Positions 201-17,755 of a stretch of DNA of 64,000 bases are shown here, in pieces. The DNA comes from Clostridium sp. AM22-11AC. GTDB taxonomy: Bacteria; Bacillota; Clostridia; Lachnospirales; Lachnospiraceae. Where the stretch lies: the NCBI RefSeq assembly GCF_003473545.1, contig NZ_QUCM01000008.1:39307-103306 (forward strand). Reading direction: 5' to 3'. A program made the position numbers and the translations under genes. Under the pieces are notes generated by a model. That model searched no databases, was not told the origin of the DNA, and saw nothing but the letters and a program-made list of their open reading frames with translations. The number at the start of each line of letters is the position of its first letter. Positions within the stretch are counted from its first letter, which is position 1.

Positions 201-201
201 G

Positions 202-2524: not shown

Positions 2525-2572
2525 CACCGACCTCTGGGTGGTGTATAATTGCGCCCTTAGTAAACTAAGGGG
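2525..2572. other. oriT: Candidate origin of transfer (oriT) with IncQ-like nic motif
   Basis: An imperfect inverted repeat (CACCGACC with GGGTGGTG, 2525-2543) is followed by TATAATTGCGCCCTTAG. The core TGCG/CCCTTA resembles the nic region of MOBQ origins (RSF1010 and pSK41/pGO1 share TGCG followed by CCCT). The predicted nick is between 2553 and 2554. CCCTTAGT and ACTAAGGG form a second palindrome at 2554-2571. A MOBQ-type relaxase gene lies nearby, which supports the call. Confidence 0.6.
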
Positions 2573-3195: not shown

Positions 3196-3380
3196 TCTGT
3201 GTGTTCCTCCTTTTTCTTTGCTCGTTTGGATAAATAACGGGGGCAGTCAATCACAACCGCCCGGAAGCTCTGCTTGCACCCATGCTGGCATTTCCGGCAT
3301 AATTCGTTGTAAGTGACACGCCCCCGGTCATTGAGGTAAAATGAAAGCTCATGCTTCCTCTTTTTGCTCATTCTCGGCAT
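3192..3380 (-). CDS. Small basic four-cysteine protein (copy 1)
   Basis: A 62-residue protein with N-terminal MPRMSKKRKHELSFYLNDRG and a C28-C31-C35-C46 pattern in NELCRKCQHGCKQSFRAV. The spacing suggests a small zinc-binding fold. A paralogue with identical Cys spacing is at 10878-11072 in the other element. Both copies overlap the start of a replication-type gene. The start has GGGAGG nine bases upstream. I do not know its function; DNA binding in replication or mobilization is a guess. Confidence 0.7.
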   Translation of the reverse strand: MPRMSKKRKHELSFYLNDRGRVTYNELCRKCQHGCKQSFRAVVIDCPRYLSKRAKKKEEHTE

Positions 3381-3787
3381 ATTGCGCTTCCTCCCGTTTT
3401 CGTGTATGGTTTCGGGGCGATTTTCGGCAAAATTACGGTCATAGAGCCGCCTAAAATCTCCCGAAGTATCAGCGATAGGATAGACTGTCCCCCTATCAGA
3501 TTGTCGTGTTTCGGTATCATTTCGGTGTCAGTCCGCCAGTTCTCCCCGGTGTCGTTCCTCCCCTGAATCTCACAGCGGCGTATCGCTCCCGTTGGTACGC
3601 TCGTTTTGGTCAGGGTTCCTCCATATCCCTGCCAAAAGTCATGGCGCTACATCGCCGGGGAAGCATATCCCACACAGGCTGGTCATTCGATTGGAATAAT
3701 CCATCGATGAACTACCTGTATCATAGAACATTTTTGTGCCCTGTGCCGTATGTCCACAAAGTAGGAATTAGGGGTAAAAATCAGAAA
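3381..3787. other. Non-coding spacer between divergent genes
   Basis: No supported gene. It contains the phrase TTTCGGTATCATTTCGG (near 3511), which recurs upstream of the paralogous 4-Cys gene near 11229, so part of this leader is related between the two elements. The rest is GC-rich with no strong hairpin that I can assign. Confidence 0.4.
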
Positions 3788-3817
3788 TTTCCACGATTGC
3801 GGAAAGTGTGCTATAAT
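3788..3817 (+). promoter_or_regulatory. Extended -10 promoter and inverted repeat of the HTH regulator gene
   Basis: An extended -10 (TGCTATAAT, box at 3812-3817) lies 47 bp upstream of the regulator ATG. Just upstream is an inverted repeat TTTCC-N8-GGAAA (3788-3805), a plausible operator for autoregulation. No good -35 box is visible, which fits an extended -10 promoter. Confidence 0.5.
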
Positions 3818-3863
3818 CCAGTTAAGCGGCAGCAATGCAACCGCCGGAAAGGAGCGTGCGCCC

Positions 3864-4670
3864 ATGAAAGGAGCAACAAGCATACAGGAACGCCTTTGGG
3901 AACTCCGCAAGGACAAAGGCTTAAATCTGGAAGAATTATCAGAGCTGACGGGTATTTCCAAATCAGCCCTTGGCAGTTATGAGAAAGAGGATTATAAGGA
4001 AATCAATCATGGCAACCTTATCACGCTGGCAGATTTCTATGGGGTTTCCGTTGATTATCTGCTGTGCCGGACAGAGAACCGGGAGCAGATTAACACGCCA
4101 CTAACAGAGCTGCATTTGAATGATGAGATGGTTGCACTTCTGAAAAGCGGTCGGATTAACAACCGCCTGCTCTGTGAGCTTGCCACACATAAAGATTTTA
4201 TCAAGTTTCTTGCGGACATTGAGATTTATGTGGATGGGATTGCCACCATGCAGATTCAGAACCTCAACGCCCTTGTCGATACCGTCCGGCATGAAATCAT
4301 TGAACGGTATCGCCCCGGCGAAGATGACCCCCATTTGAAAGTGTTGCAAGCCGCCCATATCAGCGATGATGAATATTTCAGCCACATGGTTCTGGATGAC
4401 CTCAACCTGATTATCCGGGATATTCGGGAAGCTCACAAAAAGGACAGCGAGAGTGCACCCCAGACCACCGTTGCTGATGAACTGAAAGAAAATCTGGAAG
4501 CGGTCGAAAATTTCAAGGGCAGCCGGGATGAAAAGCTCGTTGTACTTTACTGCAAGCAGCTTGGTATCAACTACAAAAATTTATCGGAAGAAGAATTTCG
4601 CTGGCTGATTCGGATTCTCCAAAAATCAAAGAAAATGGGAACGCCTATCAGCCAGAGGAAAAAACGGTAA
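3864..4670 (+). CDS. XRE-family HTH regulator with long C-terminal region
   Basis: A 268-residue protein. Residues 7-70 are a Cro/CI-type HTH (IQERLWELRKDKGLNLEELS, then TGISKSALGSYE). The remaining 190 residues form an acidic helical region with no motif I recognise. The ATG is preceded by AAAGGAG at nine bases. It is the only plus-strand gene in this part of the element, facing away from the replication/mobilization operon, which fits a master repressor. A terminator follows at 4674. Confidence 0.85.
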   Translation: MKGATSIQERLWELRKDKGLNLEELSELTGISKSALGSYEKEDYKEINHGNLITLADFYGVSVDYLLCRTENREQINTPLTELHLNDEMVALLKSGRINNRLLCELATHKDFIKFLADIEIYVDGIATMQIQNLNALVDTVRHEIIERYRPGEDDPHLKVLQAAHISDDEYFSHMVLDDLNLIIRDIREAHKKDSESAPQTTVADELKENLEAVENFKGSRDEKLVVLYCKQLGINYKNLSEEEFRWLIRILQKSKKMGTPISQRKKR

Positions 4671-4673
4671 CAA

Positions 4674-4724
4674 AAAACCGCTGTTGCATGGTTGGGGTGG
4701 CTTCCATGTAGCAGCGGTTTATGC
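4674..4724 (+). terminator. Terminator after the HTH regulator
   Basis: AACCGCTG and GCATGG pair with CCATG and GCAGCGGTT to give an interrupted stem directly after the stop codon at 4670, ending in TTTATG. Confidence 0.65.
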
Positions 4725-4781
4725 TGTGCTTATTTAGTTAAAATTTAGGGTGACAAACTGAGGATACAACTAAAATACTCC

Positions 4782-5246
4782 CTATAATTGGATTGCCGAT
4801 TTCTCTGAATCATTTATATATACTGCAATCGAATCTGTTTCTTTCATATACGGCTTATCCCATAAAAGATGGCTTTTGTGATGATAAATCTTCCCTCCGT
4901 ATGTATAGCTGTAAAGAACTCTGTACGGGGACTTTTTTCCATATTGTAGAAACTTTTGCATATATACCTTTTCTACAATCCCATTAACTTTAATTCCGTT
5001 AGAAATCAACTCGCAATATGATTTCCTCTTTGCTGAAGCGAGAACTGTAAAAATAGCTTGTGCAATTAAAAAAGCGACACCAAGTACAGAAAAAACAATC
5101 CCAATGTGCCTTTGACTTTGAACTATTGACGCTGATGTAGGCTGTAATATTCCAATAAAACTAAGCAAACCAAAAACGATAAAAGCACAGCCTAAGCACA
5201 TAGAAATAAGAGCATATAACTGTTCTGCATATTTGATTCTATTCAT
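4782..5246 (-). CDS. DUF3592-like membrane protein
   Basis: A 154-residue protein with two predicted membrane helices (about residues 12-33 and 46-70). A soluble domain follows in which NGIKVNGIVEKVYMQ...YRVLYSYTYGGKIYHHKSH resembles the DUF3592 fold. Function is unknown. It starts at an ATG with AAAGGAG upstream and lies 21 bp after the SRPBCC gene in the same direction, so the two are probably co-transcribed cargo. Base composition is clearly AT-richer than the mobilization genes around it, suggesting separate acquisition. Confidence 0.7.
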   Translation of the reverse strand: MNRIKYAEQLYALISMCLGCAFIVFGLLSFIGILQPTSASIVQSQRHIGIVFSVLGVAFLIAQAIFTVLASAKRKSYCELISNGIKVNGIVEKVYMQKFLQYGKKSPYRVLYSYTYGGKIYHHKSHLLWDKPYMKETDSIAVYINDSEKSAIQL

Positions 5247-5267
5247 AGTATTCTCTCCTTTACAACT

Positions 5268-5672
5268 TCAACTTTGTTGTTCCAATGTTTTTTTTAAGTC
5301 CAGAACAAATTGAGTTTGCTGCTTCTTCAAATAGAGTTTTACAAAAGGTTTCATAAACCACTTTTTAGGTGTCACATTTTCTGTAAAATCAATTTGTGTT
5401 TCATTTCCCTTAGCTGTAAAAATACCAGTCCAATGCCCGGCCATATTGCTATTTTCCATGTCAAATTCCCAGCGGTTATATGGCTCAACAGCAGTAATAG
5501 AAAATGTAGTTGCATATCCGTCTTTCGTGTACTCAATAAACTGCTTCTCATTTATGATTTCTGTTTTGCTTAAATCGCTTCGCCACGCACTATATTTATC
5601 AACAGCAAAAACAATATCCCAAACTTTATGAATATCATCATTGATAATCGCATTTATATTCGAAATTGCCAT
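5268..5672 (-). CDS. SRPBCC (START/polyketide cyclase-like) domain protein
   Basis: About 134 residues with the SRPBCC layout: N-terminal strand and helix AIINDDIHKVWDIVFAVDKY, central RWEFDMENSNMAGHWTGIFT, and a long C-terminal helix. Members bind hydrophobic ligands or act as stress-response lipid-binding proteins; the ligand here cannot be inferred. ATG at 5672 is chosen over the one six bases upstream because GGGGG then sits at normal distance. AT-rich cargo paired with the DUF3592 gene. Confidence 0.75.
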   Translation of the reverse strand: MAISNINAIINDDIHKVWDIVFAVDKYSAWRSDLSKTEIINEKQFIEYTKDGYATTFSITAVEPYNRWEFDMENSNMAGHWTGIFTAKGNETQIDFTENVTPKKWFMKPFVKLYLKKQQTQFVLDLKKTLEQQS

Positions 5673-5722
5673 TTTCATACCCCCTTCAAACTCTATTTTG
5701 TCATAATCATTCTACCATACCA

Positions 5723-6100
5723 TTATGAATAAATCATCTCATACAAAACAATTTCTTCTGCCCGGTTGTGAATGTTATTGCAACGCTGCACCCATTCCAT
5801 TTGACAGGTACGCTTCAATTCCTCGGTCACGCCCTCGGCAGCTTTCATCTGCTCCATGATGGTGTCTAACCGTTCCTGTACCTGTTCGTTCAGGTCTGCA
5901 AGGTATGTCCATAACTCCCCTGTCAAGGTCAAGGTGTTCAATTTGGCTGGGTGGACTTCTCTTAAATACTCCCGGTGCATCCGTCCGTACTTTCCGATAG
6001 GGCGGTGTTCCTCCGGCAGCTTCAAATCTGGGATATAGTAATCTCCGACAAGGATATAATCAATTCCGTTTTCCGTTATTCTTGGTTTCAATTCGCTCAT
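5723..6100 (-). CDS. tnpV: TnpV-type transposon protein
   Basis: A 125-residue protein beginning MSELKPRITENGIDYILVGD and containing PIGKYGRMHREYLREVHPAKLN, the pattern of TnpV proteins of Tn4451-like mobilizable transposons. The C-terminal half is helical and charged. Function is not established; it is a marker of this element family. It starts inside the 3' end of the upstream HTH gene (41 bp overlap) with GGAGG in place, so the two are translationally coupled. Confidence 0.85.
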   Translation of the reverse strand: MSELKPRITENGIDYILVGDYYIPDLKLPEEHRPIGKYGRMHREYLREVHPAKLNTLTLTGELWTYLADLNEQVQERLDTIMEQMKAAEGVTEELKRTCQMEWVQRCNNIHNRAEEIVLYEMIYS

Positions 6101-6332
6101 GCTCCTTACCTCCTGTGGAAGCAGGCTCGTCTGATACTAACTCAATCACATCGGTAATCTCACAATTCAGCGTTTCGCAGATACGGGCTAATGTATCCAT
6201 GCTGATGTGCTTTCCCTCTTTGCTCATGTTGGCAATCATATTCGTTGTCATACCAGCAGCAAGCCTTAAATCTTCTTTTCTCATATCACGCTCTAACAGT
6301 GTATGCCAGAGTGGTTTATAGCTGATGTGCAT
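6060..6332 (-). CDS. XRE/Cro-type HTH regulator
   Basis: About 90 residues with a Cro/CI-type HTH spanning nearly the whole protein (HISYKPLWHTLLERDMRKED, then AGMTTNMIANMSKEGKHISM). This resembles the YozG/XRE regulators that accompany tnpV. ATG at 6332 is chosen because AGGCGG precedes it and the domain starts there; an upstream in-frame start at 6422 would add a low-quality extension. It is the first gene inside the right end of the left mobilizable element and probably autoregulates with tnpV. Confidence 0.8.
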   Translation of the reverse strand: MHISYKPLWHTLLERDMRKEDLRLAAGMTTNMIANMSKEGKHISMDTLARICETLNCEITDVIELVSDEPASTGGKEHERIETKNNGKRN

Positions 6333-6487
6333 ATTGCTTTCCCGCCTTCCTATCCATACCACCGGGGCGGCTGCCCCGGCAGGAACTTTTCTCTTATTAT
6401 AGCACCAATCTTGTGAAATCACAATTTATTCTTGTGGACTGCCGCTGATACCGTCTGGATTGTGCTTTTCCTTTCTTTTTGTTCCCT

Positions 6488-6524
6488 TTAATTAGCCATG
6501 AACTGCTTGATGCCCTGCGATTTT
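6488..6524 (-). pseudogene. maff2: maff2 3' fragment, separated from its 5' part by a 9.2 kb insertion
   Basis: On the minus strand this reads KSQGIKQFMAN and then a stop. KSQGIKQ is the continuation of the maff2 product, whose first 41 codons are at 15680-15803. The two pieces flank the serine-recombinase element exactly, with CAAA shared at both junctions. The normal Gly-rich hydrophobic C-terminus is missing, indicating a second disruption at about 6490. Confidence 0.8.
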
Positions 6525-6613
6525 GTTGATGTGTGATAAAGAAGTAATAGAAGTGCAAAAAATTTTGCCGTTCCTATCCGGCACTTAGCTCTTGTGTCGG
6601 ATAGGTCGGGCGG

Positions 6614-8224
6614 TTATTCGGGCAAGTCCACCTTGCCAACAAAAGAATAATAAATCTCAATGTCCTGCCTACGGGTCTTGTTCTCGTCATAGCTGCACTC
6701 ATGCACAACGATTTTCTCTACAAACTCCCGCAACAAAGTAGGGGTAAGTTCTTCAAAGCTGGTATGCCGCCGGACAACATTCATAAACTTTTCTGCGTTC
6801 ACGGTGGCTTCCTGTGCTTTGGAAAGCTCCGCTTGAATAACAGCGGCTCTTTCTTTCAGTTCCCGTTGCTCCGCTTCATAGTCTGCCGACAGCTCTGTGA
6901 AACGCTCGTCTGATATGCGCCCGGTCACGCTGTCCTCATACAGTCGCTTGAAGATAGCGGATAACTCGGCTATGCGTTTCTCGGTGGCTTCCAGCTCCTT
7001 TTTCTTGGCGGCGTTCCTGCGCTTGCCCCCGTCCTCGTTCTGCTGGGTCAAGAGCTTCATAAACCGGGCTTCATGCTTTGCCGCATAGCTGGTCACTTTC
7101 CGCAGATTGGAGAGTACACCAGCGGTCAAGAGGTCGGTGCGGATAAAGTGCGCCGTACAGTCATGGGTGCGTTTCTTGTAGTTGCCGCAGATATAACAGT
7201 CCTGCTTGCGCTTGTCCGTCTGGTATCGCTGCTGATACATCACGCTGCCGCAGTCCGCACAGAACAGTATGCCGGAGAACAAACCCACTTCATCATAGCG
7301 GTTTGGGCGTTTGCGCTGTTTGCGAAGCTCCTGCACCCGTTCCCATGTTTGGGTGTCTATGATAGGCTCGTGGTGGTTCCCGAAAATCACTTGCTTTTCC
7401 GGGGGATTTTCTACACTGTGCTTGACTTTGTAAGAAAGTTTTTCTGTCTTGAAATTTACCAGACAGCCTGTGTATTCCCGGTTTTCAAGGATATGCACTA
7501 CGGTATTGGTCGCCCACTTGCACTCATAGCCGGGGTGGTAGCGGCGGGTGCTGCCCGTCCTGCGGTATTCAAGCGTTCCCGGCGTGGGGATTTGCTGCTC
7601 TGTGAGCATACGGGCTATCTTGGTCGGACCGTTCCCGGCAAGGCAGAGGTTGTATATCTGCTTAACTACGGGTGCAGCTTCATCGTCAATAATGAAATTT
7701 TCGTCCTCGTCCATGAGGTAGCCATACACAGGTTTGCTTGTGATTGGCTTGCCACTCATACCTTTTGAGCGTTTTACTGCTTTGATTTTCTTGCTCGTAT
7801 CTCTCACCAGCCATTCGTTAAAGATATTCCGCAGCGGGGCAAAGTCATTGTCGCCCTGTGCGCTGTCCACTCCGTCATTGATAGCGATGAAGCGGACGCC
7901 TTTCTGTGGGAAAACCATTTCCGTGTACATTCCCACTTGCAGGTAGTTTCGCCCTAACCTCGACATATCCTTTACGATAACTGTCCCGACTTTTCCGGCT
8001 TCAATGTCCGCAAGCATGGCTTGAAAACCGGGTCTTTGAAAGTTCGCACCAGAATAACCGTCGTCCGTGTACCAGCGCAGATTGGAAAAGCCGTTCTGCT
8101 TTGCATAGGTTTCAAGAATACGCTTCTGGTTGGAAATGGAATTGCTCTCGCCTTGCAGCTCGTCCTCATGGGAAAGTCTTGGGTAAAGGGCGGTAATTGG
8201 TTGTTGGTTGGTCTGTCTTAACAT
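6614..8224 (-). CDS. Large serine recombinase (TnpX/TndX-like)
   Basis: A 536-residue site-specific recombinase that excises and integrates the element. The N-terminal resolvase domain (residues 8-155) has the catalytic Ser18 in ALYPRLSHEDE, followed by DDGYSGANFQRPGFQ and KDMSRLGRNYLQVG. Then come the Recombinase domain (KPVYGYLMDEDE...IARMLTEQQIPTP), a zinc-ribbon with CADCG and CGNYKKRTHDC (about 325-365), a coiled coil (about 400-490) and a C-terminal DUF4368-like end. It lies at the left end of the element with its 3' end about 90 bp from the junction, as in Tn5397-type elements. Full length for the family; no frameshift seen. Confidence 0.95.
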   Translation of the reverse strand: MLRQTNQQPITALYPRLSHEDELQGESNSISNQKRILETYAKQNGFSNLRWYTDDGYSGANFQRPGFQAMLADIEAGKVGTVIVKDMSRLGRNYLQVGMYTEMVFPQKGVRFIAINDGVDSAQGDNDFAPLRNIFNEWLVRDTSKKIKAVKRSKGMSGKPITSKPVYGYLMDEDENFIIDDEAAPVVKQIYNLCLAGNGPTKIARMLTEQQIPTPGTLEYRRTGSTRRYHPGYECKWATNTVVHILENREYTGCLVNFKTEKLSYKVKHSVENPPEKQVIFGNHHEPIIDTQTWERVQELRKQRKRPNRYDEVGLFSGILFCADCGSVMYQQRYQTDKRKQDCYICGNYKKRTHDCTAHFIRTDLLTAGVLSNLRKVTSYAAKHEARFMKLLTQQNEDGGKRRNAAKKKELEATEKRIAELSAIFKRLYEDSVTGRISDERFTELSADYEAEQRELKERAAVIQAELSKAQEATVNAEKFMNVVRRHTSFEELTPTLLREFVEKIVVHECSYDENKTRRQDIEIYYSFVGKVDLPE

Positions 8225-8240
8225 AAAATCCTCCGTTTCC

Positions 8241-8293
8241 GACAGCCAGCCCCACTATTCCGTATTTCGATTATACCACATGGGGCGGCTGTC
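8241..8293. repeat. Inverted repeat upstream of the recombinase gene
   Basis: GACAGCC-A-GCCCCA (8241-8254) pairs with TGGGGCGGCTGTC (8281-8293) around a 26 bp AT-rich loop. It lies 17-70 bp upstream of the recombinase start, so it could be an operator or a recombinase-binding site. Confidence 0.55.
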
Positions 8294-8308
8294 TGTATAG
8301 CGGCTTCT

Positions 8309-8321
8309 GCTTCTTTACCGC
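8309..8321. repeat. Internal copy of the element-end motif
   Basis: GCTTCTTTACCGC occurs here and at 15657-15669 at the right end of the element, in the same orientation. Here it is part of the palindrome TTTACCG-CC-CGGTAAA (8314-8329). It may be an additional recombinase-binding site or a relic boundary. Confidence 0.5.
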
Positions 8322-8370
8322 CCGGTAAAATGACGATTTTTTACTGTGCGGCTTCTCGCTGCAAAAAAGA

Positions 8371-8399
8371 TAGAAAAGTTCATAACTCTGTGATATACT
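8371..8399 (+). promoter_or_regulatory. Putative promoter of the alpha/beta hydrolase gene
   Basis: TAGAAA (8371-8376) and, after 17 bp, TATACT (8394-8399) with an upstream TG (extended -10). It lies about 40 bp before the hydrolase ATG. Confidence 0.5.
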
Positions 8400-8436
8400 T
8401 TACCGTAAATACACATCAGACATTGCAGGAGAGAAA

Positions 8437-9057
8437 ATGAAAACTATATTACTTCATGGATTAGGGCAAACATCATCAAGCTGGAAAAATACGATTAACA
8501 CTATGGGGAAAAGTGCGGACATTTTATGCCCGAACCTTTTTGATTGGTTTGAAGATAAAGAGGTCTGCTATCAAGTTTTATATCTTGCTTTCTCCGAATA
8601 CTGTAAGCAATTTTCAGAACCGGTCAATATCTGTGGGCTATCTTTAGGCGGTATTCTCGCATTGCAATATGGGATTGAAAATCCAGATAAAATAAACTCT
8701 TTGGCGTTGGTTGCGACACAATATACAATGCCGAAAAAACTCTTGCAATTTCAAAATATGCTCTTTCAGTTTATGCCTAAAAGAACATTTGAAAGCATGG
8801 GACTTGGTAAAACGGATTTTATCAATCTGTCAAAATCCATGATAAACTTGGATTTCCAAAAAGAATTGAAGTGTATCAATAGCCCTGTAATGGTTATCTG
8901 CGGGGAGAAAGATGCAGCAAATAAACAGGCTTCTTTACAGCTTCAATCGCAGTTACCACAAGCCGAATTATTAGTGATTAAAAATTCTGGACATGAAGTA
9001 AACATAGACGCTCCCGAAGATTTGGGGAAAGCACTCTCCGCATTTTTCAACCTATAA
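8437..9057 (+). CDS. Alpha/beta hydrolase (cargo)
   Basis: A 206-residue alpha/beta hydrolase. The oxyanion motif is HGLGQTSSSW near the N-terminus and the nucleophile elbow GLSLGG has Ser69. The probable acid is Asp159 (ICGEKDA) and the base His186 (NSGHEVN). Substrate is unknown; the size and layout fit small esterases or acyl hydrolases. No signal peptide. It starts at an ATG preceded by GGAGAG. It is the only plus-strand gene of the mobilizable element and is AT-rich compared with the flanking mobilization genes, consistent with acquired cargo. Confidence 0.85.
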   Translation: MKTILLHGLGQTSSSWKNTINTMGKSADILCPNLFDWFEDKEVCYQVLYLAFSEYCKQFSEPVNICGLSLGGILALQYGIENPDKINSLALVATQYTMPKKLLQFQNMLFQFMPKRTFESMGLGKTDFINLSKSMINLDFQKELKCINSPVMVICGEKDAANKQASLQLQSQLPQAELLVIKNSGHEVNIDAPEDLGKALSAFFNL

Positions 9058-9066
9058 TTTCTCCGC

Positions 9067-9098
9067 CAGCGGTCACGCCAAAAGCGTGACCGCTTTTC
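9067..9098 (+). terminator. Bidirectional terminator between hydrolase and tnpW
   Basis: AGCGGTCACGC and GCGTGACCGCT form a perfect stem around CAAAA and are followed by TTT. It separates two convergent genes. Confidence 0.8.
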
Positions 9099-9107
9099 AG
9101 TATCATG

Positions 9108-9296
9108 TTAAATCACCGTTTTTTGTGTAGCAGTTTCCGCTTCCAGCACTTTCATCATCTTGTCGGCTGCGGTGGCTGTGGTATCTTTCTTGAAAAAGCC
9201 GGACACAACAAGCACGGTGTTACCCATGCGGATCTCCGTCACGCAGTCCGGGCGGCGGTCGGTGCGGTCATTGTTATTCTGTTTGTTTTCTGTCAT
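9108..9296 (-). CDS. tnpW: TnpW-family transposon protein
   Basis: A 62-residue protein with DRRPDCVTEIRMGNTVLVVS and GFFKKDTTATAADKMMKVLE, the conserved pattern of TnpW proteins of Tn4451-type mobilizable transposons. Function is unknown. ATG at 9296 is preceded by AAAGGAG; a TTG two codons upstream is less likely because it abuts the site. It is the last gene of the mobilization/replication operon. Confidence 0.85.
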   Translation of the reverse strand: MTENKQNNNDRTDRRPDCVTEIRMGNTVLVVSGFFKKDTTATAADKMMKVLEAETATQKTVI

Positions 9297-9308
9297 AGGC
9301 AACTCCTT

Positions 9309-10148
9309 TCACTTCAACAGTTCTTTTAGTCCATTGAGCTTGGCTTGTGCCGTTTCCTTTCGGAAGTTCTTGCCTGTAAAGAGGATAGGCAGACACATTT
9401 CAAGCACTCGGTCATGGATACGGGCGTGGGCGGTGTCCTGTGGATTCTGCAGTTCCGTAAGGCTTAGATTGGTGGTGACAATCAGCGGCTTTCGGCTGCG
9501 GTATCGGCTGTCAATTACATTGTAGACCTGTTCCAAACCGTACTCTGTGCCACGCTCCATACCAAAATCATCAAGTATCAGCAGAGGGAAACGGCAAAGA
9601 CGCTCGATATATTCGTTTCGCCCCTCAAAGCTGGCAGTTAAATCATTCAGTATCGCAGAAAAGTTTGTCATGCGGACGGAGATTTCCTGTTCCATAAGGG
9701 CATTGGCAATGCACCCGGCAAAATAGCTTTTTCCTGTGCCTACCTTGCCCCACAAGAGCAGACCATAGTTGTTTTCTCTCATCTGCTCCCAATGCTCCAC
9801 ATATAAATGTGCCTTGCTCATCTGCGGGCATTTGCCGTTGTCATGTGCAAAAGTCCATTCCTGCATGGTGAGGTCGGTAAAGCCCCGGCGTTTCAGTTCC
9901 ATAACGGTGTTAAGGTGTCGTCTGCGTTCCTCGGCGGATTCACATTCCAAACGCTTCTCCCGTTGGCAGTCACATTCTGTCGGGTGCTTGTCATGCCCCA
10001 ACCATGCGGCGGTTTCTTTGGGAAAGTAGGCTTCTTTCGCCGTGCGGCATTTGCTGCAGTAAAGCAGACCGTCCTCGCCCGTGTAGTCCTCCGGCTCTGC
10101 GGTAGTAGTCATCATATTCAAAACGGTATCGGTAAAAAGTTCAGTCAT
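9309..10148 (-). CDS. DnaC/IstB-like ATP-binding protein
   Basis: A 279-residue AAA+ ATPase of the DnaC helicase-loader type. The N-terminal 80 residues include Cys pairs CSKC and CDCQREKRLEC (probable zinc site). Walker A is LLLWGKVGTGKSYFAG (about residue 140), Walker B LLILDDFG, and sensor 1 IVTTNLS. The likely job is loading a helicase onto the replicating element. Its start overlaps the replisome-organizer stop by 4 bp (coupled translation), and tnpW follows after about 12 bp. Confidence 0.88.
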   Translation of the reverse strand: MTELFTDTVLNMMTTTAEPEDYTGEDGLLYCSKCRTAKEAYFPKETAAWLGHDKHPTECDCQREKRLECESAEERRRHLNTVMELKRRGFTDLTMQEWTFAHDNGKCPQMSKAHLYVEHWEQMRENNYGLLLWGKVGTGKSYFAGCIANALMEQEISVRMTNFSAILNDLTASFEGRNEYIERLCRFPLLILDDFGMERGTEYGLEQVYNVIDSRYRSRKPLIVTTNLSLTELQNPQDTAHARIHDRVLEMCLPILFTGKNFRKETAQAKLNGLKELLK

Positions 10149-10888
10149 AAACTCTCGCCCTCCTTAAAGGTGTAATCGGGTATGCCTTTTTTCGGCGGTT
10201 TCTTGGCTTCGTCCTCCTGCGCCCACTTGTATATCGTGGCTGCATGACTGCGGTATTTCGTTCCTTTGGACGCTATATGAGTAGATAAGCGGTCAATATA
10301 ATACTCCCATTTGTCGGGCAGTTCCGCTTTCAGCTCGTCCAGTTCCGTATCGGAAAGAAAAACATTGTTGTATCTGCCATAGCTGCGGGCGGGGGCTTGT
10401 CCCGTTTCTAACTCTCTCTCTTTTTCTATCTCTATATCTATCTCTTTCTTTATCTCTATCTCTGGCGGACGAATGTCGGACAAATGTCCGCCGTTTGTCC
10501 GGGGTGGTGGCAAAGCCTTGTTTGCAAGCCTTGCCGCCCGTTTTCGTTCCGCTTCGGTAGAGGATTGCCCTATCATCAGTTCAATATCGGTCATGTAGAG
10601 CAAGCCGCCGTGTAGCTGCTCCACAAGCCCCAACTGCTGAAAAATCCCTAACGCCCGTTCCACCGTGCCTACCTGCTGACGGGTAAGAGTGGCGATCATC
10701 TGTGCTGTGTAAGGGATATTCTCGTCAAGCTGCAACTTGCCGCCGTTTTTCAGCGATTTTAAGTACAGCTTCAAGAGAATGTTGGAATAGAGAATACCGT
10801 CCGGCATACTCTCCAACAGCACGATAGCGTCATCATCAAAATAGCTTTCTTTCAGTTTGAGGTAGTAATATTTGCGGTTATCTGCCAT
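10145..10888 (-). CDS. Replisome organizer / DnaD-like replication protein
   Basis: A 247-residue protein. Residues 1-130 match the phage replisome organizer N-terminal domain (KYYYLKLKESYFDDDAIVLLESMPDG, with winged-helix TLTRQQVGTVERALGIFQQL). A low-complexity linker rich in I/E/K (EIEIKKEIDIEIEKERELE) leads to a C-terminal helical region seen in DnaD-like proteins. It probably binds the element origin and recruits the DnaC-like ATPase encoded next. The linker is encoded by a TCTCTATCT-type simple repeat at about 10420-10460. Confidence 0.85.
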   Translation of the reverse strand: MADNRKYYYLKLKESYFDDDAIVLLESMPDGILYSNILLKLYLKSLKNGGKLQLDENIPYTAQMIATLTRQQVGTVERALGIFQQLGLVEQLHGGLLYMTDIELMIGQSSTEAERKRAARLANKALPPPRTNGGHLSDIRPPEIEIKKEIDIEIEKERELETGQAPARSYGRYNNVFLSDTELDELKAELPDKWEYYIDRLSTHIASKGTKYRSHAATIYKWAQEDEAKKPPKKGIPDYTFKEGESL

Positions 10889-11072
10889 AGGCGGTGTCCT
10901 CCTTTGGTTTCCAACGCTTGGAGTAATACCGGTGGCAGAGGATAATCACGGCTCGGAAACTCTGCTTGCAATCGTGGGTGCAACCCCGGCAAAGGTCGTT
11001 ATAGGTAATTCGGTTTCGGTGGTTGAGGAAAAAGCTCCATTCAATCCGCCGTTTGTTGCTCATGCGTGGCAT
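10878..11072 (-). CDS. Small basic four-cysteine protein (copy 2)
   Basis: A 64-residue protein, MPRMSNKRRIEWSFFLNHRN..., with Cys at 28, 31, 35 and 46 in the same spacing as the protein at 3192-3380 and the shared CKQSFRAV motif. ATG at 11072 is preceded by AAAGGAG. It overlaps the replisome-organizer start by 11 bp. Two copies in two unrelated mobilization modules, each coupled to a replication gene, point to a role in element replication. No function is known to me. Confidence 0.72.
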   Translation of the reverse strand: MPRMSNKRRIEWSFFLNHRNRITYNDLCRGCTHDCKQSFRAVIILCHRYYSKRWKPKEDTAYGR

Positions 11073-11257
11073 TGGTACGCTCCTTTCTGCCGTTTCCGTG
11101 GGTATCACGGATAGGGCGGGAAAACTGTATCTTCTCGGTATCATTTTCGGGGATTTTTTGCCCTGTACGCCCTGTTTTGAGGTCGGGGAGTATTGCGGAT
11201 AGGGGTAAGGGTATATCCCTGTTTTTGTTTGGTTTCGGTATCATTTCGGGGCGGTTT

Positions 11258-12883
11258 TTAACGCTCCTGTTCATGCTTTTTCTGTCTGCTCGGTTCGCCG
11301 TGGTGCATTTGGGAAAGATTGCTTTTCATGGTCTGCAACTCCCGGACACGCTCTTTATTTGCCCGGTACTCGTTGTAAAGGGCGTTCTTCTCGGCGGTAA
11401 GCTGCTCGATTTCAGCCTGCAACGATTTATAGGTGGGCAGCTTGATAATGTCTTTTTGCCGAAAATATCTTACGGCTGCGTCTGCTATGATAAAGTCGCT
11501 TTCATGCTTTTCACGGTAGGCTTTGCGTGCCTTATCGGTTTTCTGCTTTTTCAAGCCGTCACGCACATCTCTTGTCTTGGCATAGGCAAGCACCTGTTTC
11601 TGCAAGTCCTTTTTCTCACGGATAGCCGTTTCAATGGGCTTCAGCTTGGCGGTGCTGCTGTGTAAATCCGCATTGGCAGACACAAGGGCTGCGTCCAGTT
11701 CATCCGGGGTAAAGCCGTATTGCTCCATAGCGGCAACGGTAGCCGCCATCTGTTTGAGATTGTGGACAGCCGCCCAACGGTCATAGCCGATACCTTTTCC
11801 CTCGGCTCGCTTCGCCGCACGGTCAACCATTCTCTGAATGTTGCCTGTCGGGGCGATTTTCTGCGTTTTTCCTCGCTCTGTGCGGTTTGTTTCAGCGGTA
11901 TGGTATTCGGGTATGGGTACGGTCTTTTCGGCGGCTCTGTGGGCGTTCTGCTCCAAAAGAGTAAGAACGGCAGCGCGGTCAAAATCATCTCCCAGCTTGC
12001 GGGCGGTAATGGGCTTTGTCCTGTCCGGCGTGAGGTAGGATAGCCGCCCTCGGCTCTCCTTGACAGTCACGCCCTGTTGCAAGAGAACGGCGGCGAACTC
12101 GCCATAGCTTGCGGCAGAGGACAGCGCGGTGCGTATGGCCTGCCGCAATTTTTCCTTGTCTGTTTCAAACTTCGTGGGCTTGGCTGGCTGCTCCTCGGCT
12201 GGCAAGGCGGCAGCTTCCTTGTCCAGCTTTGCCTGCCCTTTCCGCTGCGCCCAATACTCACGCTCGGTAATGCGGTTTTTGCTGCCATGCAAAAGGTCGA
12301 TTTGATAGAGATTTTCCCGGTGGCACATCTCCATGACCTCGGCTTTGAAGTATTCCATAGCAGCGTCCGTACAGCGGTGCTTGCACCCGGCACGGGTATC
12401 TGCCGGTCTGTCCATGTAGGGCAGTAAGGGTACTTCCTCGATACGCAGAGAATTGATAACAATGTGAACATGGATATTGCCGCTGTGGTTGTGTCCGTCC
12501 GGGTGGGTACAGACAATGGCTTGGTGTCCTGGGAAATGCTCGGCACAAAATTCCTCGCCCAATGCTTGCGCCCGGTCTACGGTCAAGCCGTTGTCCGCTG
12601 CGTCCCGTGGGTCAAAGGAAATGATATAGTGGTGGCTTTTCACATCTTCCCGTTTTTGGTTCTTGCCGTATCGGAGATTTGCCCGCATACAGGCAACGGC
12701 AAAATCTTCCTCGCCGCAGTTCAGCGTGGCTATTCGGTAATCCTCCCGGAGAATGAGCCGCCCGGCTTCGTCAAGGGTGGGCTTCATGGTAAACTCGTCA
12801 TGCTCAAAGGTTAGATACTGCTCGGCTGCACCGTAGTCCGCATTTTTAGAGCTGATATGCTTGAATGTTGCCAACAGCGTCAC
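11258..12883 (-). CDS. Relaxase/mobilization nuclease (VirD2/MobP-like)
   Basis: A 541-residue relaxase for the serine-recombinase element. The likely catalytic Tyr is among the N-terminal tyrosines (YGAAEQYL, residues 17-23). The metal-binding histidines are in HNHSGNIHVHIVINS (131-140). The C-terminal 250 residues are charged and helical, with GMLTRQ-free coiled-coil segments. It starts at a GTG that overlaps the end of mobC, so the pair is coupled. The upstream site is AAAGG. It differs in family from the MobA/MobL relaxase at 202-1782, confirming two independent mobilization systems. Confidence 0.9.
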   Translation of the reverse strand: MTLLATFKHISSKNADYGAAEQYLTFEHDEFTMKPTLDEAGRLILREDYRIATLNCGEEDFAVACMRANLRYGKNQKREDVKSHHYIISFDPRDAADNGLTVDRAQALGEEFCAEHFPGHQAIVCTHPDGHNHSGNIHVHIVINSLRIEEVPLLPYMDRPADTRAGCKHRCTDAAMEYFKAEVMEMCHRENLYQIDLLHGSKNRITEREYWAQRKGQAKLDKEAAALPAEEQPAKPTKFETDKEKLRQAIRTALSSAASYGEFAAVLLQQGVTVKESRGRLSYLTPDRTKPITARKLGDDFDRAAVLTLLEQNAHRAAEKTVPIPEYHTAETNRTERGKTQKIAPTGNIQRMVDRAAKRAEGKGIGYDRWAAVHNLKQMAATVAAMEQYGFTPDELDAALVSANADLHSSTAKLKPIETAIREKKDLQKQVLAYAKTRDVRDGLKKQKTDKARKAYREKHESDFIIADAAVRYFRQKDIIKLPTYKSLQAEIEQLTAEKNALYNEYRANKERVRELQTMKSNLSQMHHGEPSRQKKHEQER

Positions 12884-13253
12884 CTACCTTTCGCAAGACT
12901 TCAAACTTCAAGGCGGCAAGGTCGGAAATGGCGGCTCGCACTTCAACGGACAGCGTATTGTAGGGCGTTCCGTATTCGTTGAGGGCACGGGCGATCTGAT
13001 TAAGGTTGCCGCCGATTTTTCCGTATTCGGCTATCAACTTTCCAACAGCGGACAGCAGTTCATCATTGACCGGGGAAACGGTAACAATGGGGCGAATGGT
13101 CGCCCTTGTAATGGCTTGTCGGATAAACTCGGCTTGGCTCATGTCATAATTCTTTAGCCGTTCTGTGAAGTCGGCATATTCTTCTTCGGTCATGCGTGTC
13201 TTGACTACATGGCTTCGGTGGGGCGTATTGTATCGCTTTCCTATGGGTATCAA
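12846..13253 (-). CDS. mobC: MobC-like relaxosome protein
   Basis: A 135-residue ribbon-helix-helix type accessory protein (KTRMTEEEYADFTERLKNYD, SQAEFIRQAI), with the MobC C-terminal motif GKIGGNLNQIARALNEYGTP. It binds near oriT and helps the relaxase. The start is uncertain: the TTG at 13253 directly abuts AAAGGAG, while a codon ATA in the same frame sits at the ideal distance. Its 3' end overlaps the relaxase gene by 38 bp. Confidence 0.85.
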   Translation of the reverse strand: MIPIGKRYNTPHRSHVVKTRMTEEEYADFTERLKNYDMSQAEFIRQAITRATIRPIVTVSPVNDELLSAVGKLIAEYGKIGGNLNQIARALNEYGTPYNTLSVEVRAAISDLAALKFEVLRKVGDAVGNIQAYQL

Positions 13254-13315
13254 CTCCTTTCACTTACCGCCGTTTTGTGGGCGATTTTTTAAGTATTTTT
13301 TGGTGGGATTTTCAA

Positions 13316-13359
13316 GCGGCACAAGCCGCATAGCAGGGTTTGGGGAAGGCACTCCCCAA
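13316..13359. other. oriT: Candidate oriT of the serine-recombinase element
   Basis: Two adjacent hairpins lie directly upstream of mobC: GCGGC-ACAA-GCCGC (13316-13329) and TTGGGGA-N6-TCCCCAA (13340-13359), separated by ATAGCAGGG. The position and the inverted-repeat layout fit an oriT recognised by the adjacent MobC and relaxase. No nic consensus could be assigned. Confidence 0.4.
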
Positions 13360-13703
13360 CAAGATTCCCGCAGGGGCAAAATGAGCGATAAGCGAATTTT
13401 GGCACCTCGGTAGAATCTTGCTCTAAGAAACTGCCGGACTGCCGTTCACTTGCTACTGCCACTTTTTCGGGAAATCTATAACCAGCTTTTTTATAAAAGG
13501 CTGCGGGCGGCGTTCTCCCCTTACTCCCTACAACACCGCAAAAAGCAAAAATGACGGACTTTCCGGCAAGAACTTTTCCTGCGGCGTGGTCTTTCCCGAC
13601 AATAAGGCGTTTTGGAAACTGTGTTTTGCTCGCCGTCTGAAAAAAACGGCAATCTTTTTTGGCTTCACTGTCTAATACGGAACATTTGGAAATTTGCCAA
13701 AAA
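13360..13703. other. Non-coding region upstream of the mobilization operon
   Basis: No supported gene in about 340 bp. It probably contains the mobC operon promoter and relaxosome sites. Short A/T runs and GC-rich segments alternate (for example CTTTTTTATAAAAGGCTGC near 13490), but no promoter with good boxes was identified. Confidence 0.35.
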
Positions 13704-13708
13704 TGGGC

Positions 13709-13750
13709 GCAAAAAAAGCAGCAAATCTTTTTCGGATTTACTGCTTCATG
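13709..13750 (-). terminator. Intrinsic terminator after the HTH/sigma genes
   Basis: On the minus strand AAGCAGTAAATCC pairs with GATTTGCTGCTT and is followed by TTTTTTT. It directly follows the HTH gene. It is a homologue of the hairpin at 1846-1886, with about 75 percent identity over roughly 75 bp including flanks. Confidence 0.75.
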
Positions 13751-13786
13751 TGCCGCTGCGGGGCGGCGGGATATTCAGTTTTTATG

Positions 13787-13987
13787 TTATCGGTCAAGCC
13801 GAAACTTGAACAGGCTTTCAATCAGCTTTGTTCTGATGTAGTCCTCCATATCAGAGTTATAATAACCGTTCATGTTGGAGAAGTAGCGGATATATCCAGC
13901 GTATCGGTCAAGGACGGCTTGTATCGCTATGGGGTCGCCCTCATGTGCCTTTATGATAGTGTCATAGGGGAGAAGTCGGTTACTCAT
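13787..13987 (-). CDS. Conjugative-transposon HTH protein
   Basis: A 66-residue protein beginning MSNRLLPYDTIIKAHEGDPI, matching the small helix-turn-helix proteins that sit beside the sigma factor in Tn916-like and related elements. Probably a regulator of element genes. Its start overlaps the sigma-factor stop by 8 bp, so it is translationally coupled. A terminator follows. Confidence 0.8.
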   Translation of the reverse strand: MSNRLLPYDTIIKAHEGDPIAIQAVLDRYAGYIRYFSNMNGYYNSDMEDYIRTKLIESLFKFRLDR

Positions 13988-14423
13988 GGGACAACACCTC
14001 CATTTCCTCTTTCAGCCGCTTCAAGGCAAGCTGAATATGCCGCCCGATTGTGCTGCGTGTCCAGCCGCTTTGTTCTCCGATTTCTTTCTGTGTCAAGTGC
14101 TGGAAGTAATATAAAAAGATTTCCTCTTGTGTCTGTTCCGGCAGCCCGGCAAGAGCCGCCGCAAGGGAACAGCTATCTAAAAATATCGTCTGCCCCCGGA
14201 CAGAAAACAGATAAGTTTCGCCATAGTCCGGCACTTGAAAATACTCGTCTGTGGTGCTTAGTGGGACAAACTTTTCTTCGGTCAAATATTCAAGAGAGAT
14301 TTCCCGTCTCCACCTCGCCGCCAGCATACGGGCAGCGTCAAAGGACGCATGGCGAATAACAATCCGGCAATAGGTATCATGGGTATAGCGGATATGTTCT
14401 TGATAGGCTTCCTGTTCGGTCAT
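13980..14423 (-). CDS. Sigma-70 family RNA polymerase sigma factor (element-encoded)
   Basis: About 147 residues. The C-terminal region-4 HTH is clear: FLYYFQHLTQKEIGEQSGWT followed by STIGRHIQLALKRLKEE. The N-terminal half is divergent from region 2. Family knowledge: such factors activate transfer genes in Tn916-type elements. ATG at 14423 is preceded by AAAGGGGG at eight bases; a start seven codons upstream would overlap that site. Coupled with the HTH gene downstream. Confidence 0.85.
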   Translation of the reverse strand: MTEQEAYQEHIRYTHDTYCRIVIRHASFDAARMLAARWRREISLEYLTEEKFVPLSTTDEYFQVPDYGETYLFSVRGQTIFLDSCSLAAALAGLPEQTQEEIFLYYFQHLTQKEIGEQSGWTRSTIGRHIQLALKRLKEEMEVLSHE

Positions 14424-14454
14424 GGAAAATCCCCCTTTCTTCAATTATGGGAAA

Positions 14455-14482
14455 GGGCGGCAGCATTTTCTGCTGTCGCCCC
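14455..14482. terminator. Hairpin upstream of the sigma-factor gene
   Basis: GGGCGGCAGCA and TGCTGTCGCCC pair around TTTTC, a strong stem between the DUF2812 gene and the sigma factor. No long T run follows, so it may be a terminator or a leader structure. Confidence 0.5.
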
Positions 14483-14580
14483 TTGATTACCCACCGGCAA
14501 GGACAGGCGGGGCTGTCAACGGTGGGTGCAGCCCATTTACTTGCCGTTGACTGGCTCGGCTGGATTTGCTATTTATATTA

Positions 14581-15165
14581 TCATTCTTGTGTTTTTGCTT
14601 CTTGTCTGTTGTGCATGATTTGTATTTGATATATAAGAACGGGAATCAGAGAAATCAAAGCAAGCACACCAAAAACAATCGAATGATTTATAACTGCAAA
14701 TATTGCAAACATAAGCAGTATCAACAACCATGGATTACGCAGATTTCTGTAATAGTTTTCCTTGTCCTCATAGGAAGTATGAAGTTCAAACGGCTTTCCA
14801 TCATTCTCTTTTTCTACAATCAACAATTCACGGTTGAAGGTTGTAGTGTTGGTCGCAATGCGTCCGCCTTTTTCAGCCCATGGACGCCAACGCACCTTAC
14901 CGACAGAATAGTTAAGATTGATATTTTTGAAAAATACCTTATAGCCCATATCTTCCAAAAAGAGGGAATAGTCTTTTGCATTCTCTTTCGATTTTTCTCC
15001 GATAAATTCTACACAGTATTTTACTTCATTAGGTTTACATTCTTCAAACTCATATAACATTTTCCCCGCTCGAATAAGACGATAGCCCTTCTCCGACATT
15101 TTATTCAGCCAATTCGCCTGTGCATTCAACAGACCACCAAAAAAATGATAACATTTTTTTCTCAT
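14581..15165 (-). CDS. DUF2812 membrane protein (cargo)
   Basis: A 194-residue protein. The soluble N-terminal part MRKKCYHFFGGLLNAQANWL...MSEKGYRLIRAGKMLYEFEE is the DUF2812 pattern, and two membrane helices follow (about 144-160 and 164-182). Function is unknown. It overlaps the PadR gene by 4 bp. PadR-DUF2812 pairs are common in Firmicutes and usually interpreted as a regulator with its membrane target. AT-rich relative to the mobilization genes. Confidence 0.85.
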   Translation of the reverse strand: MRKKCYHFFGGLLNAQANWLNKMSEKGYRLIRAGKMLYEFEECKPNEVKYCVEFIGEKSKENAKDYSLFLEDMGYKVFFKNINLNYSVGKVRWRPWAEKGGRIATNTTTFNRELLIVEKENDGKPFELHTSYEDKENYYRNLRNPWLLILLMFAIFAVINHSIVFGVLALISLIPVLIYQIQIMHNRQEAKTQE

Positions 15166-15485
15166 ACTGTACCTCCAATAATTCCACTTGCAACCTCTAC
15201 AAGTTCATTAAGCCTTACAAGTTCTTTTTTCGCAACTTCTTTTCCCAGTGAGGTAATGATGTATTCTTTTTTTCTACCTTCACAATCTCCGCAAGGCTTA
15301 ATCCATTTCTTTTCCTGCAAAGAGTTTAGCGCACCATACAAAGTGCCTGCTCCCAATGAAAGCCGCCCACCTGTTTTTTCTTCGATAAATTGCATGACAG
15401 CATATCCATGTTTTGGAGCATAGAGAGAAAGTAAAATGTAAAATGTCACTTCTGTAAGCGCACCACCTTTCATATTATCACGCAT
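15162..15485 (-). CDS. PadR family transcriptional regulator
   Basis: A 107-residue winged-helix repressor: GGALTEVTFYILLSLYAPKHGYAVMQFIEE, then GAGTLYGALNSLQEKKWIKP and a dimerization helix. PadR proteins repress their own operon and a neighbouring membrane protein gene. The ATG is preceded by AAGGAGGAT. It forms a two-gene operon with the DUF2812 gene under the promoter/operator at 15501-15546. Confidence 0.9.
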   Translation of the reverse strand: MRDNMKGGALTEVTFYILLSLYAPKHGYAVMQFIEEKTGGRLSLGAGTLYGALNSLQEKKWIKPCGDCEGRKKEYIITSLGKEVAKKELVRLNELVEVASGIIGGTV

Positions 15486-15500
15486 TGTTTATCCTCCTTG

Positions 15501-15546
15501 TTACGGTTACTGTAATAAATATATCACTAACCGTAATAGAAGTCAA
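15501..15546 (-). promoter_or_regulatory. PadR promoter with palindromic operator
   Basis: On the minus strand TTGACT (15541-15546), 17 bp, TATATT (15518-15523). A perfect 9 bp inverted repeat TTACGGTTA/TAACCGTAA (15501-15509 and 15528-15536) overlaps the -10 box and spacer, as expected for PadR autorepression. Confidence 0.75.
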
Positions 15547-15662
15547 CAGCGTTCAAAGAAATTTGGAAATATGAAAATGAAGCAGCAACATCTTGGTGTT
15601 ACTGCTCCATTCTTATACGGTATAGCGGTAGCCTTGGCTGCCTTTGTCTTGGTTTAGCTTCT

Positions 15663-15803
15663 TTACCGCACATGAGCATTTGCACCTGGATTATCATTTC
15701 CATATCCTTCGAGAAGATTGATTACTCCCCACACACCTACACCTGCGCCGATTGCGGTTACTACTGTTTTAAGTCCTGTTACTGATGTTGTAAAAAAGCC
15801 CAT
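15663..15803 (-). pseudogene. maff2: maff2 5' part, interrupted by the mobilizable element
   Basis: The frame reads MGFFTTSVTGLKTVVTAIGA followed by a hydrophobic segment and LLEGYGNDNPGA, the start of a Maff2-family small membrane protein. After Ala41 the frame enters the inserted element and stops within five codons (46 residues in all). The ribosome site AAAGGAG is intact. The downstream remainder of the gene is at 6488-6524. Family role unknown; it normally sits next to the coupling-protein gene in such ICEs, as here. Confidence 0.88.
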
Positions 15804-15913: not shown

Positions 15914-15938
15914 ACTTCTGGACGCTGTGACCAGAAGT
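15914..15938. repeat. 25 bp inverted repeat, copy 1
   Basis: Arms ACTTCTGG and CCAGAAGT around a 9 bp centre. It overlaps the VirD4 stop codon and lies 110 bp upstream of maff2. It is one of three near-identical copies (others at 18531 and 19288), differing by one base in the centre. Confidence 0.8.
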
Positions 15939-17755
15939 TAAGCTGTGATTTCTCCGACATCGCATACCTCATCCACCACATCATTCCTCTTAAAACGAAG
16001 TCTGTTGCGGTTCTTCACGTATTTTTCAATGTCAAATTCATTCTTTTTGTCATAATCGGATAACAGCGGGTACTGCTTATGCTTCGTTATATCAAATTTA
16101 TCTGAGAAAAATGGTCTTACACCTCTAAGCTGCATGATACACTTGCTGCCATCCATGACCGCAATCTCGTCCTGACTCATTAACTCCTTTCCGGTCTTTT
16201 GATAATTCAGACCGTAGGACTGGCTCGTACCTCTCGTATCCGAGGTATTATAAAGGTCAATCGTTTCTTTTCCAAGGATTTCTGCCAGATCTTTCAGAGT
16301 ATCTTTCTCTTTTCCTCCCAGAAACAGGGTAGTGTCGCAGTTTCCTTCAATCGTGGAAGCGTTGTCCCGGTACAGAGCCTTGAGCTGTGACTTTGACTGC
16401 AAAATAATAGAAGCTGATATTTCCCGGCTACGAATGGTAGCAATCAGCTTCTCAAACTGTGGAATCTGCCCGATGTTTGCAAACTCGTCCAGTAAGCACC
16501 GGACGTGAATCGGCAGTCTTCCGTTATATACATCATCTGCCTTGTCACAAAGCAGATTGAATAACTGCGAATACATGATACTTACAATGAAATTGAATGT
16601 CGCATCGGTATCGGAGATAATGACAAACAGTGCTGTCTTTTTCTCCCCCAATGTATCAAGCTCCAGTTCATCATAAGCAGTCAGGTCACGCAGCTCCTTG
16701 ATGTCAAATGGTGCCAACCTTGCACCACAGCTAATCAGAATAGATTTTGCTGTCTTTCCTGCGGCAAGTTTATACTTCTTATACTGCCTTACCGCAAAAT
16801 GGTTTGGGTTCTTCTGCTCCAGCTCCTCAAACAGCAGGTCAACCGCATTTTTGAAATTTTCATCATCCTCCCTAGCTTCGCTGGCATCCACCAGATCAAT
16901 CAGCATGGAAAAATTCTGTTCTTCCTCCGGTGCTTCGTACCAGATATATGCGATCAGTGCCGTGTAATAGAGCTTTTCGGCTTTCACCCAGAAATCCTCA
17001 GAGGCTTGCTGTCCTTCCCCTTTGGTATTTACAATGATTGTGTTTACGAGTTTCAGAATGTCCTTTTCGCTCCGGATGTAAGCGAAAGGATTATAATGCA
17101 TTGATTTTGCAAAGTTAATGGTATTCAGCACCTTGATCCGGTAATCATTCTTGGACAACATTTTGCCACATTCCACGAGGACTGTGCCTTTGGGATCAGT
17201 CACAACGTAGGAACTGTGCATCTGCATGAGGTTCGGCTTTACAAAAAATCTGGTCTTTCCGGAACCGGAACCACCGATTACAAGTATGTTTTTATTTCTC
17301 GCATACTTCGGCTGCTTTGGTCTGCCGGACATCATAAGACGCTCCGTTGCCGTTAAAAGCACGTTGTTTTCAAATACCGGATCGACATAAGGCTCTATGT
17401 CTTTGGCAGTTCCCCACCTTGCCGAACCGTATTCTACTCCCTGCCGGAATTTCTTTGCATTTTTCGCTTTATAATATACTACCATACGAAATCCTATCCC
17501 GCATCCCACGCCAACCAGTAAATCCCTTGGCATAAAACTGGGAAACGGGTTTACAAACGCACCTCCCATCCCATTGATCGTGTCCAACACCTTCTGTAAG
17601 GTGTTATCACCTGCCTGCTGTCCATACAGCCATGAAACCTTATTCAGAACATACCCGAAGATCACATAGGGAGCGCATTTCAGGGCAAGCTGCTTTTTAT
17701 TTACCCCTTTTGTTTTTTCTTTGAGATTTTTCGGAATTGACTGCAAATCTTTCAC
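15938..17755 (-). CDS. virD4: VirD4/TraG-type conjugative coupling protein
   Basis: A 605-residue type IV coupling ATPase that links the relaxosome to the secretion channel. Two N-terminal membrane segments (about 28-45 and 78-95). Walker A GGSGSGKT is at residues 161-168, followed by the VVTDPKGTV motif, Walker B RCLLDEFANIGQIP and a TraG-like C-terminus with ILQSKSQLKALY. It starts at a GTG 20 bp after the PcfB-like stop. Full length. It serves the outer ICE and could also transfer the two mobilizable elements nested in it. Confidence 0.95.
   Translation of the reverse strand: MKDLQSIPKNLKEKTKGVNKKQLALKCAPYVIFGYVLNKVSWLYGQQAGDNTLQKVLDTINGMGGAFVNPFPSFMPRDLLVGVGCGIGFRMVVYYKAKNAKKFRQGVEYGSARWGTAKDIEPYVDPVFENNVLLTATERLMMSGRPKQPKYARNKNILVIGGSGSGKTRFFVKPNLMQMHSSYVVTDPKGTVLVECGKMLSKNDYRIKVLNTINFAKSMHYNPFAYIRSEKDILKLVNTIIVNTKGEGQQASEDFWVKAEKLYYTALIAYIWYEAPEEEQNFSMLIDLVDASEAREDDENFKNAVDLLFEELEQKNPNHFAVRQYKKYKLAAGKTAKSILISCGARLAPFDIKELRDLTAYDELELDTLGEKKTALFVIISDTDATFNFIVSIMYSQLFNLLCDKADDVYNGRLPIHVRCLLDEFANIGQIPQFEKLIATIRSREISASIILQSKSQLKALYRDNASTIEGNCDTTLFLGGKEKDTLKDLAEILGKETIDLYNTSDTRGTSQSYGLNYQKTGKELMSQDEIAVMDGSKCIMQLRGVRPFFSDKFDITKHKQYPLLSDYDKKNEFDIEKYVKNRNRLRFKRNDVVDEVCDVGEITA

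Follow-up and report, generated by a model that had tools for sequence, protein, structure and literature searches.

The window analyzed here is a 64,000-nucleotide stretch of the Clostridium sp. AM22-11AC genome (contig NZ_QUCM01000008.1). It contains maff2, a gene of an integrative and conjugative element (ICE), that is interrupted, very probably by two integrative and mobilizable elements (IMEs). Features lie on the minus strand except where stated. The VirD4 coupling protein of the host ICE, a member of the CD1115 family, is encoded at 15938-17755 (571.7 bits; cut-off, 250). Beside it lies a truncated maff2 open reading frame (ORF) at 15663-15803, consisting of 41 native codons (15681-15803) and an NAHVR-stop tail from the first element, IME-1. 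IME-1 occupies 6524-15680 and measures 9157 bp from core to core. A maff2 stub of 7 codons (KSQGIKQ; 6503-6523), recognized from its translation and from the flanks of relatives, separates IME-1 from the second element, IME-2, which covers positions 1-6503, is incomplete in the window, and has an end that reads FMAN-stop at 6488-6502.

The minus strand from 15803 to 15681 translates as MGFFTTSVTGLKTVVTAIGAGVGVWGVINLLEGYGNDNPGA, after which the frame runs into element sequence (NAHVR) and stops at 15663-15665. Beyond IME-1, positions 6523-6491 of the minus strand translate as KSQGIKQFMAN, with a stop codon at 6490-6488. A sequence-only reading of this DNA had proposed that the 5' part of maff2, ending in NDNPGA, continues with KSQGIKQ. 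Comparison with intact Maff2 proteins bore this out: the first 41 residues of two database proteins, P0113 and P0118, are identical to those in the window and are followed by KSQGIKQ. Where intact Maff2 shares these 41 amino acids, the sequence then runs KSQGIKQLMAGGG. P0113, which matches PF12750 Maff2 over its full length (127.5 bits), has 22 residues after KSQGIKQ, starting with LMAGGG, whereas the window has FMAN and a stop. Hence, of the two halves that had been described as readable, 41 codons of the first can be read but only 7 codons (KSQGIKQ) of the second, before the FMAN-stop of another element; the remaining 3' part of maff2 is not inside the window. We conclude that maff2 is split by IME-1 after codon 41 and that this split is real rather than a chance resemblance.

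The ends of IME-1 were located from its two junctions and by comparison with relatives. The dinucleotide AA is found at 15679-15680 on the maff2 5' side and at 6522-6523 on the 3' side. It is flanked by 18-nucleotide terminal arms, at 15661-15678 and, at the recombinase end, at 6524-6541, which pair as inverted matches at 14 of 18 positions. Because of this inverted match around AA, we assign AA as the predicted crossover core, a placement that fixes the ends to the base, where the earlier claim had been to within a few bases. Large serine recombinases cross over at 2 bp, and an AA core fits this. The longer CAAA, previously taken as the likely core, is indeed present at both junctions; it was ruled out, since the host base before AA at the left junction and the one after AA at the right junction vary among relatives. 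A general repeat search returned short pairs only and did not reveal the ends of IME-1.

The low-coordinate side of IME-1, which had been read as the ICE, instead contains IME-2, in the same maff2. IME-2 starts 18 bp beyond the IME-1 core and encodes a MobQ relaxase (202-1890; 239.9 bits; cut-off, 200), with a TnpV protein and a helix-turn-helix protein near its end (5723-6422; domain scan). In three pieces, the first 6.5 kb of the window matched the MobQ element of Vescimonas fastidiosa pMM35_01 at 94.1%, and the match to an unannotated Subdoligranulum variabile plasmid was 92.6%. In Vescimonas pMM35_01, the same element is the sole interruption of a maff2 that lies between the VirD4 and VirB6/PrgI/VirB4 genes; the FMAN-stop end is on the maff2 5' side, and maff2 resumes at LMAGGG on the other. 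If maff2 held one IME only and the ICE resumed directly below position 6488, KSQGIKQ would be in frame and on the correct strand, as it is. However, the frame stops after FMAN, an element with a MobQ relaxase follows, and a near-identical IME-2 end alone interrupts maff2 in Vescimonas. We consider a single insertion to be highly improbable. The probable core at this second site (site 2) is CA at 6504-6505, 18 bp from the core of IME-1 at site 1, as judged from the junctions and their symmetry. The possibility that the stub is part of IME-2's own end was rejected, since its codons vary among loci that share the FMAN end and are continuous with maff2 in Vescimonas.

We examined the best 80 of 519 relatives of the IME-1 recombinase. 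The recombinase-side flank was readable in 76 of the 80 loci (all but L018, L049, L066, and L068). An intact maff2 3' part was present in 36 of these flanks, a maff2 stub with an early stop, as in the window, in 12, and other sequence in 28. The in-frame continuation KSQG[IMV]K was thus found in 48 of 76 flanks, and 12 of 48 maff2 loci were doubly interrupted; because the sample is the best 80 of 519, these fractions are not population frequencies. Where the opposite end of the element was located, the maff2 5' half was present in frame at 36 of 36 maff2 loci; at other targets it was present in 0 of 14.

Among the 12 doubly interrupted relatives there are at least five different site-2 ends. 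The stub is followed by FMAN in six (L026, L036, L037, L038, L047, and L078), by LMAN in L058, by VMAN in L063 and L069, and by other ends in L034, L067, and L074. The Vescimonas IME-2 recombinase had its best match at 99% identity in six of the 12 genomes, at 83-84% in three others, and at 39-53% in the remaining three; matches were counted over whole genomes and the protein family is large, so that those of low identity are no evidence for IME-2. The two recombinases are adjacent on one contig, in the same orientation and with the expected spacing, in L026, L037, L038, L058, and L069; they are also adjacent in L074, in inverted orientation. The variety of site-2 ends suggests that double occupancy may have been assembled repeatedly. 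An exact-pattern search for the double junction, which misses variants, had 2 hits among 391 genomes of a class and 1 hit among 128 of a family, and both counts include the genome under study. Recombinases of this kind are multicopy (9 to 45 matches per genome in the 12 genomes) and can mislead assemblies, such that two elements might have been joined artificially via similar maff2 copies. However, double junctions of the same kind occur in 12 genomes, which differ in their site-1 and site-2 variants, and some of the contigs that carry them are 98 kb to 984 kb long. An assembly artefact is, in our judgment, very improbable.

IME-1 relatives at non-maff2 targets (28 of the 80 loci, e.g., L005, L006, and L017) share a short symmetric motif. 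AA is retained in 27 of these 28 targets, accompanied at fixed distances by G (93%), G (82%), and T (89%), and the mirrored A (71%), C (71%), and C (86%) are seen in the 14 available left flanks. On average, 7.9 of 18 positions in non-maff2 targets agree with the half-site consensus of maff2 (range, 3 to 12), compared with 4.5 of 18 (standard deviation, 1.9; maximum, 12) for a random control of 5600 flank positions. From these alignments, the predicted shared target of site 1 is A-N2-CC-N7-AA-N7-GG-N2-T.

Both IME-1 junctions and the near junction of IME-2 were observed directly in the window, and the same arrangement was observed in relatives. Beyond IME-2, maff2 resumes at LMAGGG in all five same-orientation loci with the far side fetched. 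We conclude with high confidence that this ICE maff2 holds two IMEs in series, that a separate large serine recombinase inserted each of them at a separate site, and that 18 bp separate the two cores. The full order would be maff2 codons 1-41, IME-1 (MobP, 9157 bp), codons 42-48, IME-2 (MobQ), and, past the edge of the window, what remains of maff2 and of the ICE. Each IME would be excised by its own recombinase, independently of the other, nicked by its own relaxase (MobP or MobQ), and moved through a conjugation machine of this ICE family.

Several observations weigh against this interpretation. The far junction of IME-2 and its recombinase in the source genome would lie outside the window; a serine recombinase of the IME-2 type is present in Vescimonas and several relatives, on the side that the window does not reach. 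The far sides fetched come from six of the 12 doubly interrupted loci and leave out L034, L036, L047, L063, L067, and L078. In L074 the second element has the opposite orientation, and a fetched stretch of 20 kb did not reveal its other end. The best IME-2 recombinase match is 40% in L034, 39% in L063, and 53% in L067, and the second elements of these loci are therefore of another or unproven kind. Lastly, T at position -15 is favored in secondary targets (79% of 14), whereas maff2 has G there in 36 of 36 loci, and the motif therefore leaves part of the target preference unaccounted for.

A variant that overlaps with this interpretation concerns the part outside the window: IME-2 may be decayed, or may have arrived with a deletion of downstream ICE genes, in which case the ICE is not intact. 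Neither the ICE genes that follow maff2 nor the IME-2 recombinase is in the window, and such IMEs are reported in many decayed streptococcal ICEs (PMC5357655). Yet the IME-2 genes inside the window are open frames, and maff2 from codon 49 onward is kept after IME-2 in the five relatives mentioned above. We regard decay or deletion as unlikely, though to be kept in view when the two IMEs in series are interpreted.

Intact Maff2 was modeled as a hairpin of two helices (residues 2-36 and 39-68; predicted local distance difference test score, 92.8). According to this model, insertion at site 1 would cost nearly the whole second helix, and insertion at site 2 about two-thirds of it. Because either insertion would remove much of the second helix, interrupted Maff2 is probably nonfunctional until the elements leave. 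That Maff2 is a conjugation pilin of the VirB2/TrbC type is speculation. A Pfam scan to an E value of 10 returned Maff2 and an insignificant UPF0154 match alone, with no pilin family; a PDB sequence search gave no match below an E value of 1; and Foldseek returned nothing at an E value of ≤0.001. The matches listed in the fold search were many unrelated helical hairpins, with no pilin among them. PMC12102498 states that virB2 homologues are absent from Gram-positive systems.

IME-1 encodes a large serine recombinase (6614-8224) with Resolvase, Recombinase, zinc ribbon, and DUF4368 domains, and the end of the element is 90 bp beyond the recombinase stop codon. A domain scan identified a DnaC/IstB-like helicase loader (9309-10148), a phage-type replisome organizer (10145-10888), a MobP-type relaxase (PF03432; 11258-12883), a MobC/NikA-like accessory protein (12846-13253), and an HTH_16 protein with a sigma-70 region 4 protein (13787-14444). 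The same scan assigned as cargo a DUF2812 protein with a PadR protein (14581-15485) and, on the plus strand, an alpha/beta hydrolase (8437-9057). Judged by its gene content and ends, IME-1 qualifies as an IME, with a predicted integrase and relaxase of its own, a MobC/NikA-like partner, and site-specific, delimited ends. This agrees with the sequence-only reading, which had described a mobilizable element with a serine recombinase and a relaxase that targets maff2 of an ICE; the insertion in maff2 is site specific and lies beside the CD1115-family VirD4 gene of the ICE. No VirB4 or other secretion system of its own was found among the 10 main ORFs of IME-1; small ORFs (e.g., 10878-11144, 88 amino acids) were left unscanned. 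No tetracycline ribosomal-protection gene was found among the same 10 ORFs.

The backbone of IME-1 is widely matched among the 80 relatives (DnaC in 76, relaxase in 75, MobC in 75, replisome organizer in 69, HTH_16 in 55, and sigma protein in 50), in tallies that score loci shortened by contig ends as misses. The PadR/DUF2812 pair was matched in 2 of the 80 (L001 and L026), and the hydrolase in none at an E value of 1e-8 and half coverage; hence, the hydrolase appears to be rare or recent cargo. In IME-2, a cargo stretch at 5263-5702 encodes a polyketide-cyclase-like protein; an Enterococcus faecium plasmid record matches this stretch at 83.6% identity.

Records of Faecalibacterium, Lachnoanaerobaculum, Hungatella, Veillonella, and Streptococcus pseudopneumoniae contain recombinases 98-99% identical to that of IME-1 (L001-L028), which points to a recent spread across families. 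TetM/TetW/TetO/TetS-type ribosomal-protection genes were found in three of seven relatives whose ORFs were tested (L003, L007, and L040); the gene is within the delimited ends of the element in L007 and L040, and the left end was not found in L003.

An IME in maff2 is not new: IMEs with MobP or MobQ relaxases have been described at two maff2 sites (PMC5357655, PMC5704250). IME_ScoC232_maff2_site1 of Streptococcus constellatus, described in the same two papers, lies at internal maff2 site S1 of Tn5252-related ICEs and has a serine integrase, MobP, a replisome organizer, and DnaC, as does IME-1, a likeness of gene content. IME-1 differs from it in its PadR/DUF2812 and hydrolase cargo. IMESp2907 of Streptococcus pyogenes (PMC5704250) resembles IME-2, by description, in combining MobQ with maff2 site S2; it carries erm(TR), which is absent from the IME-2 ORFs scanned in the window, where the element is incomplete. 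With respect to the MobQ maff2_site2 type, IME-2 has the MobQ relaxase and is inserted within maff2, as observed at the near junction here and at both junctions in Vescimonas. IME_Rho_tet (PMC12904643), for which 116 of 256 matched sites are in MAFF2 genes, shares with IME-1 a serine recombinase, MobC, inverted terminal repeats (21-bp ends in IME_Rho_tet), maff2 as the commonest target, and the use of other targets. Its boundary is 81-90 bp past the recombinase stop, compared with 90 bp in IME-1. IME_Rho_tet is defined by a tetracycline ribosomal-protection gene, which was not found among the main ORFs of IME-1 but was found in relatives L003, L007, and L040.

Nesting or tandem arrangement is frequent for ICEs and IMEs (PMC9092696). 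A published case of two IMEs in one ICE gene involves two sites in the VirD4 coupling-protein gene (PMC5704250), in contrast to maff2 here, and among the matches listed from the open-access literature none described a maff2 with two IMEs. Double occupancy of one maff2, recurrent in related gut bacteria, adds a new example to a class of nested elements that has already been described. The proposal that the IME travels with the ICE describes one recorded mode; for ICESp2905, a host of a maff2 IME, three outcomes are on record, namely transfer of the whole, of the IME by itself, and of the ICE without the IME (PMC5704250). In S. suis, no excision was detected for two IMEs that reside in ICEs (PMC7168690).

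The constrained 3'-side positions of the site-1 target all lie within 14 bp of the core, inside the 18-bp stub, and IME-2 at site 2 should therefore leave site 1 usable. This location can explain how both sites could be filled jointly. We tentatively propose, with confidence a little short of even, that maff2 is a double docking site, at which two IME families with cores 18 bp apart each spare the other's essential half-site, so that elements would stack, travel, and be lost independently; the support for half-site sparing concerns site 1 only. If so, the ICE would stay cut in this gene, without the second helix of its product, for as long as both IMEs are in place.

Knowledge of the exact target, the core, and the ability to stack may allow such elements to be better delimited in gut genomes. 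This would be useful because elements with the same recombination module carry tetracycline resistance in relatives (a similar family is described in PMC12904643). It also carries a warning, in that an apparent end of maff2 may be the end of a second element. Finally, the nested layout could serve as a natural experiment on whether a host ICE can transfer only after its IMEs have left.

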